This document shows, one piece after another, positions 6,003 to 25,821 of a DNA stretch of 64,000 nucleotides (within the stretch, counting starts at the first letter, position 1; each line of letters begins with the position of its first letter). A program made the position numbers and the translations under genes. Under the pieces are notes generated by a model, which searched no databases, was not told the DNA's origin, and was given only the letters and a program-made list of their open reading frames with translations. The DNA is from Neoconidiobolus thromboides FSU 785 (Eukaryota > Entomophthoromycota > Entomophthoromycetes > Entomophthorales > Neoconidiobolaceae): NCBI GenBank assembly GCA_025603075.1, contig MU626285.1:94980-158979 (forward strand). Direction: 5' to 3'.

Positions 6003-6010
6003 GTCTAGCT

Positions 6011-6092
6011 CGACAGCTACAGGATTTGAACCTGTGCGGGCAGAGCCCATCACATTTCGAGTGTGACTCCTTAACCACTCGGACAAACTGCC
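6011..6092 (-). tRNA. tRNA-Ser (anticodon CGA)
   Basis: An 82-nt type II tRNA decodes UCG. The acceptor stem GGCAGTT pairs with AGCTGTC with two G-U pairs and discriminator G. The anticodon arm has a TCACA/TGTGA stem with loop CTCGAAA, giving anticodon CGA. A long variable arm (GGGCTCTGCCC) follows, as expected for serine. The T arm contains GGTTCAAATCC, which also serves as the internal B box, and the D arm holds the A box. No intron; CCA is not encoded. Confidence 0.95.
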
Positions 6093-6762
6093 AATAACAA
6101 TCTAATTGGAATAATTTATTATATAAAACTTGGATTTTTATTATTAAATAAATTAAACTAATGCTTAATGATTGTAATGTTTGCTTTATATTAGGTTGAT
6201 CATAAGATAATCTTATAGTTTCAGGGAAATAAAAAACTTGTAAAAGTAAATAATTATAATACCATAAAAAATTTACATGGCAAAATTTATTTTTAGAGTT
6301 AAAAAATATTACAATTCCAGCTAACAGATTACTTTTTTTACACGATTGAATTCTAAGACTATGTTACAACTGATCTAATAGTCCATACTTCCTGATGAAT
6401 TTACTCGAGTAATTATAAACAAATATTTACCTAAATAAACAATTAATAATAACCATTGGTGTAAAGGGATGTAAACTTTATCAATTTCCATTAAATCGGT
6501 TTTTTAAAATGGTCATATTTATATATACAAATAACTAAATTAAAAACTAAACGAATTAAATGATTTAATCAATAAAATATTGCTAAGTGTTTAAAAGTAA
6601 CAATGAACATATCTAAATATTGCTATAAAATGCCTACTAAATTAACATACTAATCCAACAAAAACTCAGTTAAATCACTAACTACAAAAATTTATTAATA
6701 ATAAAATAAATAAATAATGATATAGTATTTAATTCAGATAAGTAAACATTAGTAGGCATTGT

Positions 6763-22972: not shown

Positions 22973-25821
22973 ATGGAACCAAGCCAATTTCAAGCTAAAA
23001 ATCTTAATTTATCGGAGGAAATCGAAGAGATTAAGGAGGATAAATTTGATTTTGACAGCGGCGTCTTGAGCAGAGAAGAAAAAATGGAATCTGTGCTGTT
23101 TGAAGAAGGTTAGGATAGTAACCTTATTGTGCAATTATTATCAATTAATATTAAAATAGGATGGGAATACTTAATTATTTATGAGCTAGAAAAGAACTAT
23201 AAATATAAAATAGTAGATATACTTAGAGATTTTGAAGTAGATAAACATTACTCATTGGAAATAAAGTAATTTTCTTCTTTTCAATAGCACCAACCTGATA
23301 ATTTTTTCTAATAAATGTTAGTATGTTAAATTTGGTACAAAATAATAGTAAATTGGGGAATTTGATTTTAAACTATCCTTTGAAATTAATACCAATTATG
23401 GAAAAAGCAGTAAACAGTCTTCAATATAGCTTATTAAGTTTCAGTACTCATGATGATCCATTATCACATAAAAGAAACGTGCACATTAGATTGAATAAGT
23501 AATTAAATATATATTTATTGTTTTATAATAACTAGTTTGTAGTTTGCCAAATGTAAATGTATATAATAAAATGGGAATGCCAAACAATGATGATATTGGA
23601 AAACTTATATCAGTCCAAGGGACAATATTAAGGTAATTTATAGAACTATTAAAAATTATAGTAATAATGTTTTAAAAGGACGGGGGAAACCAAAATAATT
23701 ACCAATACCGCAATTGCAGAGTGTACCAAATGCAAAGGAATATTCAATTTAACTAGTAATCTGGATAAGCACTCTACTATCAAACCGCCGGTTGTTTGTT
23801 TAAATGACGAAAAACCAAACTGTTTGAATAGTAGATTTAATATTACTAAAACTAATGGTAAATAGCATAACAAAAATCACCCTGATCGGTAAAATCATAC
23901 TTTATTAGATAGGCATCATTTTAGACAATATCAAGAGATCAAAATTCAACAAAATATGTCTAATTTATCTATCGGTTCAATATCCTTTTTTTTTTAATTC
24001 AAATAGGACATGTTAATTTTTTTATTCCTTAACTTTTTTTACATGCCAAAAACAGTAGTAGCGATATTAGAAGATGACCTAGTTGATCAAGTAAAAAGTG
24101 GCGATAAAGTGAAGATAATGTAAATATTGAATTAAGATTTGCATAAAAGTAGTATTAAAAATATATAAAAAATATAGTGGGTGTCTACGAAGAAGATGGA
24201 AAGAAGTTAACGCTGGGCAACGATGTATTGTAGAAATGTACTTCCATGTTAACAACGTTATTATTAAAAGCGACTTGACAATTTTTAATAACACTGTTGT
24301 AAATTCATTTACTCAATTTTGGTCAATTCATAAAGATAGACCGTTGTTAGGTAATTAAAACCAAATTTATTTATTTTATAGTTTCATTCAAATTGACAAG
24401 TTTAGCTAGGTAATAATAAAACAATAAGTAATCTTATTTATTAAATAAGGTAAAAAGAGATAAAATTGTAAATTCATTTTGTCCAAAAGTATATGGCTTG
24501 CACTTAGTTAAACTTTGCTGCTTATTAACTATTATTGGCGGTGTTTCAAAATCATCCGAAAGTGGACATAAAGTTCGTGGCGAGCCACATTTACTATTGG
24601 TTGGTGATCCTGGTACTGCAAAGTCACAGTTTTTAAAGTTTTCCAATAAATTAGTTCAAAGATCGATTTTGACCACCGGTATTGGAACCAGTTCGTGAGT
24701 CATTGTGCAATATTGTCATAGATTAGGTTACTAACGTTGATTTATTTAGGGTCGGACTTACTGTTGCTGCAACAAAAGTAACTTTGATGTTTCATAAGTA
24801 TTTTACACATGACTAATATTAATCAAAAGGATAAAGGAGGGTTTGTGCTTGAGCCAGGTGCATTGGTGTTAGCTGATGGAGGGTTATGCTGTATCGATGA
24901 ATTTAATAGTATTCAAGAAAGAGATAAAACATCTGTATATGAAGGTAATTATAAATCATTAATATATCTGAATGTCTTTCAACTATTTCTCTAGCTATGG
25001 AGCAGCAAAGAATATCGATTGCCAAAGCAGGTAAAACAATTTGAAATTAAACATCAAATATAATCTAATTGATAATAGGCATAGTGTGTACATTAAATAC
25101 AAGATGCTCCGTATTAGCAGCAACAAATCCAAAAGGTAATTACGATCCCAATCAAAGTCTGAGTACAAATTTAGCACTAGCGGGACCGTTGTTATCACGT
25201 TTTGATATGATTTTGATAATATTAGATGATAAAGATTCAGAGTGGGATGAGTAATATTTAAATAATTTTATTTAATTTAATAGATAATAATAGACATATA
25301 GTAAAATTGCCGATTACATATTAATGAGAGAATTAGATGGAATTAAAAACGATGAAAATAACACTGAGTTTAATATCGAGCAATTGAGGGATTACATTAA
25401 TTATGTACAAAATGAATATCAACCAAGGATTAGCAAAGAAGTAGATCTAATATTTACTAAATATTATCATTTAGTAAGAATGAAAGAGCAGGATAAATCT
25501 AGGACCACAGTAAGGTTTTTAGAAGCGTTGATTCGTTTAGCTCAAGCACATGCAAGGTTGTGCTTCAAAAATCAAGTTGATTACATAGACGCATGTCAAA
25601 TTATCCTCTTGATGGAAATTGCGACTGCTGGCAATTTTTTTATACCTAGGTTAGTTAGCAATCCTGTGAAATTAATCAAATCTACATTCTTTGAAAACCC
25701 TGATGAAGAAGCAAAAGAACAAGGTAATTTTTTCTCCTAGTTTTGCCTTTTATTTTTAATTGTTATTTTAGCTGGTATTATACTTGGTGCCTTGGGCCTT
25801 TCTAACATTCTTCTAGAATAA
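22973..25821 (+). CDS. MCM9: MCM9 replication/recombination helicase
   Basis: MCM9 is an AAA+ DNA helicase that works with MCM8 in homologous recombination and mismatch repair. About 700 residues in some 15 exons. Seen: the N-terminal OB part with [15 protein letters not shown], zinc-finger cysteines (CTKCKG...C...C), the MCM9-type block [14 protein letters not shown], Walker [11 protein letters not shown], Walker [29 protein letters not shown], Arg finger LLSRFD, and a C-terminal block with [12 protein letters not shown] and [13 protein letters not shown] that matches the MCM9 helical bundle. The long vertebrate tail is absent, as in plants. Start is the ATG after a T-rich leader. Two odd gene-structure points, an AT-AC intron and a possible 4-nt exon, are listed separately. 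Confidence 0.9.
23980..24042 (+). other. U12-type AT-AC intron in MCM9
   Basis: A 63-nt intron starts ATATCCTTTT, has branch site TTCCTTAAC at 24025-24033, and ends TTTAC. These match the minor-spliceosome consensus. Removing it joins SIGS to MPKT in frame and restores the conserved MCM9 spacing; no GT-AG intron does so. Confidence 0.88.
24406..24409 (+). other. Candidate 4-nt microexon (CTAG) in MCM9
   Basis: Between the exon ending DRPLL and that starting RDKIV, frame and family spacing are kept only if CTAG is retained, giving PLLARDKIV. The flanking introns are then 55 and 48 nt, typical here. The alternative is a 28-nt exon (24382-24409) that inserts eight residues. Confidence 0.5.

Follow-up and report, generated by a model that had tools for sequence, protein, structure and literature searches.

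The MCM9 gene of the window

The window analyzed here, a 64,000-nucleotide stretch of the 23.1-Mb, 392-contig assembly of Neoconidiobolus thromboides FSU 785 (G000:C28:94980-158979), carries on its forward strand MCM9, a gene of DNA repair that extends from start to stop codon over positions 22973..25821 (+). The introns of the model are GT-AG except for the one at 23980..24042, which begins with AT and ends in AC. The first two exons come from the gene model; the public MCM9 protein of the species, P0001, begins in exon 3. The sole Rfam match of the window at gathering scores is a tRNA-Ser with anticodon CGA at 6010-6093 (-).

Our first model of the gene, with 15 exons, was rejected and corrected from P0001, as it had merged two introns and missed a 9-nt microexon, TTTAGCTAG, at 24401..24409 (+). 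The public protein reads RPFLARDKIV where the first model had RPLLDKIV, a difference explained by the microexon. Ab initio and automatic gene callers rarely detect exons as short as 9 nt or introns of the AT-AC kind, suggesting that the public model was transcript-guided.

The comparisons with PDB, Pfam, sequence databases, and aligned homologues used the uncorrected protein of 688 residues. This protein was 100% identical to the public N. thromboides FSU 785 protein over 88% of the query and contained the MCM_OB, MCM, and MCM_lid domains of Pfam. Its best PDB matches were two chains named DNA helicase MCM9 (516.9 and 513.3 bits), compared with 293.9 bits for the next different molecule and 227.2 bits for MCM8. 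By sequence, the gene is closest to MCM9 among the MCM proteins, and the name given to it in the preliminary description is borne out by MCM9 chains that score well above MCM8.

The AT-AC intron at 23980..24042

The intron (23980..24042, +; 63 nt, phase 0) separates exon 6 (23909..23979, +) from exon 7 (24043..24119, +) of the model, and the residues encoded by both exons are the same in P0001. It starts with ATATCCTTTT, and its last letters, ending at 24042, are TAC. The 5' splice site, ATATCCTTTTT (23980..23990, +), has the U12-type form RTATCCTT(T). The branch site, TTCCTTAAC (24025..24033, +), has the form TTCCTTRAY, with the branch adenosine at 24031 or 24032, 10-11 nt before the intron end (about 10-13 nt in U12-type introns), and the 3' splice site is AC (24041..24042, +). 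The letters and coordinates of the intron, its branch motif, and its terminal AC are as first described, so that the presence of an AT-AC intron at this position is confirmed at the level of the DNA sequence, and the 5' site, branch site, and AC end agree with the U12-type class assigned to it earlier. The combined pattern RTATCCTTTN{20,50}TTCCTTRAY was matched 5 times in 23.1 Mb versus once for the reversed pattern; this count and the exact fall of the motifs at an exon junction indicate that the motif set is beyond chance.

Removal of 23980-24042 in phase 0 fuses SIGS to MPKT in MCM9. We aligned nine rows, comprising the model, P0001, and MCM9-like proteins of seven other species, and the junction falls inside the segment G[ST]I[PS]. 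The ungapped form G[ST]IP is found in six of the seven other species, and P0048, another of these rows, has GTIS with three extra residues at the junction. The MCM9 chains of PDB read LSVGSIPRS at this position, and P0001 carries the exact AT-AC junction. The alignment, the PDB chains, and the public protein thus support the earlier placement of the SIGS-MPKT join at a conserved spot of MCM9.

To enumerate alternatives, we listed by script all open-frame excisions of at least 20 nt within 23909-24119 that start with GT, GC, or AT and end in AG or AC. The frame was kept by 9 GT-AG, 23 AT-AC, and 61 AT-AG excisions and by 3 others; therefore, frame alone does not pick out 23980-24042, and the assertion in the preliminary description that no GT-AG borders restore the frame has to be withdrawn. 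The nine GT-AG excisions would allow the major spliceosome to splice here, for example at 23975-24055, with the AT-AC look being a coincidence. GTT donors also exist in MCM9: GTTA opens 2 of the 14 GT-AG introns in the corrected model. However, eight of the nine excisions use the donor GTTCAA at 23975, whereas GTAA accounts for 11 of the 14 donors and GTTC for none. Moreover, all nine delete GSMPKT or more, and with it the G[ST]I[PS] segment that each of the seven other species carries in the alignment; none of the nine yields P0001, which shows the AT-AC junction. In addition, the motif set recurs at 17 other sites accepted below. We regard splicing at GT-AG sites as highly improbable. Removal of the AT-AC intron by the U2-type spliceosome, as for the rare AT-AC introns of the ATAAGT kind, has a precedent in that a few such introns are known in other species; it appears just as remote here, because both the 5' and the branch sites are U12-type and match the U11 and U12 of the same genome. 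What does single out 23980-24042 is the combination of protein conservation, U12-type motifs, and agreement with P0001.

Further AT-AC introns in the genome

Three pattern scans of the genome returned 15, 40, and 41 rows, compared with 2, 9, and 6 for the reversed patterns. All three demanded strict motifs and short introns and allowed G at +1 and an AG end equally with A and AC. The 41 rows of the third scan represent 31 distinct sites (29 starting with AT and 2 with GT), of which 29 were readable; the unread sites were those on C152 and C263 in the third scan, and a GT site (C295:16459) and two AT sites (C196 and C238) in the second. Sites were accepted by eye on the basis of open frames on both sides, a stop within the intron in the unspliced frame, and recognizable proteins. 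Full spliced translations were made for the accepted sites and some others, and the other rejected sites were judged from upstream frames and codon scores.

The preliminary description had proposed looking for further introns that begin RTATCCTTT, and 18 sites, MCM9 included, were accepted as U12-type introns. All 18 start with AT and begin ATATCCTTTT, a stretch in which the pattern fixes every letter except the first; the third pattern itself fixes T at +7 to +10. The pattern of the second scan left +9 to +11 free, and in the 10 introns accepted from that scan all 30 letters at these positions are T. The intron phase is 0 in seven, 1 in five, and 2 in six of the accepted introns. Fourteen end only in AC, and in the remaining four (C73, C214, C188, and C295), an AG located 3 nt away would also keep the frame.

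Homology extends across the junction for 9 of the 18 introns. A Pfam domain above its cut-off spans the junction in 8 of the 17 joined proteins scanned, the domains being GTP_EFTU, Clat_adaptor_s, Cofilin_ADF, Metallophos, ACT_9, CLP1_N, LIDHydrolase, and MCM_OB. Rab2 (C87) was too short for the Pfam scan, and its joined protein is, for example, 80% identical to Basidiobolus Rab2 along the full length of the query. Because the public model of Rab2 is incomplete and begins beyond the AT-AC intron of the gene, MCM9 is the only case in which public annotation confirms the intron. In IPK, a domain above cut-off begins just after the junction; in PPME1, a match 0.4 bits below cut-off lies beside it; and in C38, a match below cut-off lies across it. 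The other six (an NR2C2AP-like gene on C214, and C60, C93, C1, C51, and C188) are identified by frames and motifs and have no match above cut-off, the match for C1 being 13.0 bits against a cut-off of 26. The names NR2C2AP, PPME1, HBS1, GMF, LDAH, and PPCS are presumptive, reflecting our recognition of the translations. A crude codon score, computed for 50 sites from the three scans, exceeded the 95th percentile of its null at 7 of 41 AT sites and at 0 of 9 GT sites, with one above the 99th; it missed MCM9 itself, which was not among the seven.

None of the nine GT sites from the three scans was accepted (C295:16459 is not counted among them). One of those rejected, L028, has a frame that is open straight through. 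The AT-only set could be a sampling bias, GT-AG minor introns being present in normal proportion and missed by the patterns. The patterns called for strong 5' and branch motifs with short gaps, GT-AG minor introns are generally looser, and the GT sites were few. Against this, G at +1 and an AG end were equally allowed, yet 0 of 9 GT sites were accepted compared with 18 AT sites. If the accepted introns are a fair sample, 18 of 18 starting with AT has a probability of about 3e-11 at the human proportion of 26% AT-AC and of about 0.009 at the 77% of Blastocystis, proportions given in the available text of PMC10639083. We consider a bias of this kind possible, although rather unlikely.

Candidates for all four minor snRNAs

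Rfam models run against the entire assembly returned one match per minor snRNA, each spanning its model from end to end. U11 (65.4 bits; cut-off 39) and U6atac (locus L007, 33.6 bits; cut-off 33) scored above their cut-offs, and U4atac (40.9 bits, E = 1.2e-4) and U12 (34.7 bits, E = 3.0e-4) scored at full length below theirs, which are both 53. In 14 control genomes, no match exceeded a cut-off, and one genome each gave a match below cut-off for U4atac and U11; the named controls are prokaryotes and carry little information on AT-rich eukaryotes. The genome therefore holds candidates for all four RNAs that the preliminary description expected it to keep, with U12 and U4atac below gathering scores. 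Two copies of the major U6 score 82.6 bits each, and the one that was aligned has ACAGAGA and AGC. Two further U6-like loci, L075 and L076, fell below the cut-off and are read as decayed copies.

The U11 candidate keeps AAAAAGGG, and its 5' end could pair with the intron from +4 to +11 through seven Watson-Crick pairs and one G-U pair. The U12 candidate contains GUAAGGA, which is complementary to the branch site at 24025..24033 and able to pair with it.

The U12 gene (L006 1390-1670, on G000:C12) has a U6-like promoter, with CCCACAA at -60 and an A-rich box. Alignment of this promoter with those of the two U6 genes gave scores of 33 and 34.5, compared with shuffle means of 12.0 and 13.2, and none of 300 shuffles reached them. 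The gene lacks an internal T4, ends in seven consecutive T, and has a Sm-site U run interrupted by C; in these features it looks like an RNA polymerase III gene. Two U6 genes are located on the same contig, within about 21 kb. CCCACAA was also seen upstream of U6 (L073 and L074) and U11 (L025), as well as of U12 (L006), and CCCACTA upstream of U6atac (L007), all at -60 to -73; the element is absent upstream of U4atac. We regard CCCACAA as a candidate snRNA promoter element.

An altered U6atac candidate with predicted pairing to U4atac

In the Rfam alignment, the U6atac candidate reads GAGUUGAGAGAUAAUUGGCA compared with the consensus GAAAGGAGAGAAGGUUAGCA. The AAAGGA element, the complement of +4..+9, is absent and AGUUGA stands in its place. 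In the consensus register with the 5' splice site, +4, +5, and +9 pair, +8 forms a G-U pair, and +6 and +7 are mismatched; the best of 20 registers had no more than 5 of 6 pairs. The AGC triad is replaced by GGC in the aligned U6atac (L007 1501-1645), and U4atac (L008 1501-1649) has the matching GCC. By eye, GUC of U12 is pairable with this GGC. The energy of the U12/U6atac duplex (-7.2) was reached by 109 of 500 shuffles and offers no support for it.

Cofolding of U4atac with U6atac gave -50.2 kcal/mol, compared with a shuffle mean of -30.2 (s.d. 3.3, lowest -36.1, n = 100), and displayed the expected stem II, 5' stem-loop, and stem I. The two RNAs are thus predicted to form the full Y-shaped duplex, and the identity of U4atac is supported by its pairing to U6atac. 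The longest Watson-Crick stretch between them is 9, a length reached by 2 of 300 shuffles.

These data bear on whether L007 is instead a decayed copy, a working consensus-like U6atac gene having been missed. L007 exceeds its cut-off by a narrow margin (33.6 versus 33 bits), the search scored 46 of 1136 candidates, the assembly may be incomplete, and the rest of the upstream region of L007 resembles those of U6, U11, and U12 no more than shuffles do. On the other hand, L007 pairs fully with the sole U4atac, including GGC with GCC and GUUGAUAC with GUAUCAAC, which argues that U6atac and U4atac changed together. Furthermore, a pattern for the consensus U6atac core had 0 matches in the genome, as in the control, and the CCCACTA located at -73 is similar to the CCCACAA shared by U6, U11, and U12. 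A decayed copy is, in our judgment, improbable.

AGC has been called invariant in all known U6 RNAs, a statement that speaks of U6 and not of U6atac (PMC3510501). In yeast, A59C weakens exon ligation and is suppressed by repair of helix Ib (PMC4081067), suggesting that a triad change with restored pairing may be tolerated.

Minor-spliceosome proteins

PF14968 (CCDC84, CENATAC) gave two colinear matches below threshold on C286, and a rough joined protein built from this locus scored 46 bits against a cut-off of 25.3, covering positions 1-126 of the 330 in the Pfam model. Judged in this way, a CENATAC/CCDC84 homologue appears to be retained, with a rough gene model. At the locus (L080 and L081 of G000:C286), we also read two zinc-finger-like segments and, in the DNA downstream of the model, WLPKFGRVW, a motif of CENATAC. 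In human cells, depletion of CENATAC leads to retention of AT-AN minor introns (PMC8280824).

The preliminary description had also pointed to the U11-48K protein, and here the outcome was negative. PF05253 gave one match of 19.3 bits (cut-off 21.1) to the first 17 of its 25 positions, and the finger was not found in this search. Two control genomes also gave matches, one of them above cut-off. We reject the match, whose location likewise looks accidental, as probably due to chance.

Discussion

Our data indicate that 23980-24042 is very probably a U12-type AT-AC intron of MCM9, removed by a minor spliceosome that the genome still encodes. We infer that only a few tens of minor introns persist in the genome, with AT as the first dinucleotide in all or nearly all of them, and from its sequence we read the system as a relict minor spliceosome. 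U11 would read the 5' splice site through an extended duplex and U12 would read the branch site, and because U6atac has lost the two central pairs to the 5' splice site, recognition would now depend mainly on U11 and U12. CENATAC, within the U4atac/U6atac particle, may help AT-AN introns, a role proposed from the effect of its depletion on such introns in human cells (PMC8280824).

The AT-only set might have arisen because GT-AG minor introns can drift to the major class or be lost, whereas AT-AC introns cannot easily convert and would be trapped. Conversion or loss of GT-AG minor introns is, in our opinion, the simplest account of this set. In the same direction, it has been suggested that AT-AC introns, being poorly recognized by the U2-type spliceosome, have largely escaped class conversion (PMC7367187). 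With only AT-AC introns left to serve, U6atac could then have drifted. Tentatively, and with more doubt than confidence, we put forward the stronger proposal of a transformed relict minor spliceosome, which would serve AT-AC introns only, read the 5' site mainly through the extended U11 duplex, have a U6atac blind to +6 and +7, carry GGC in place of the AGC triad along with a compensating change in U4atac, and rely on RNA polymerase III to make its U12.

Being small and holding a few tens of minor introns, such a fungal genome would be tractable for studying minor intron loss. It would let nature test whether AT-AC introns are those left once GT-AG minor introns convert to the major class. It would also provide a naturally occurring change in a catalytic triad regarded as invariant among U6 RNAs, and it would extend the fungi with minor splicing to Entomophthoromycotina, where each of the four minor snRNAs has a candidate.

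By taxonomy, N. thromboides belongs to the Entomophthoromycotina, outside Dikarya, in keeping with the fungal, non-Dikarya host presumed earlier. Conidiobolus is unnamed in the main text of PMC10639083 and absent among the matches listed for literature on minor splicing; among the papers matched to Conidiobolus thromboides and introns, judged by titles and the starts of abstracts, none deals with minor splicing. Minor introns are already known from fungi. The intron at 23980-24042 adds another, and the system around it is possibly a new form.

The closest points of comparison are other non-Dikarya fungi with U12-type introns. Rhizophagus irregularis, which has all four minor snRNAs, and Basidiobolus meristosporus, placed in Zoopagomycota, have 205 and 249 minor introns according to the available text of Larue and Roy (2023; PMC10639083), compared with the 18 accepted in N. 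thromboides. The Rhizophagus motifs are near those of animals and plants, with phases in the order 1>2>0 (PMC10639083), whereas the accepted introns of N. thromboides all start with AT and occur in phases 0/1/2 as 7/5/6. Rhizopus oryzae and Phycomyces blakesleeanus likewise have few minor introns (PMC2846911), but AT-AC and GT-AG minor introns stand side by side in them (Bartschat and Samuelsson, 2010; PMC2846911). The homologue of human CENATAC (CCDC84), which is part of U4atac/U6atac and the tri-snRNP (de Wolf et al., 2021; PMC8280824), differs from its counterpart in that its gene model is rough and its function putative. Blastocystis resembles N. thromboides in that its minor introns are very short and strongly enriched in AT-AC (196 of 253); however, Blastocystis is a stramenopile, and 23% of its minor introns are not AT-AC (PMC10639083).
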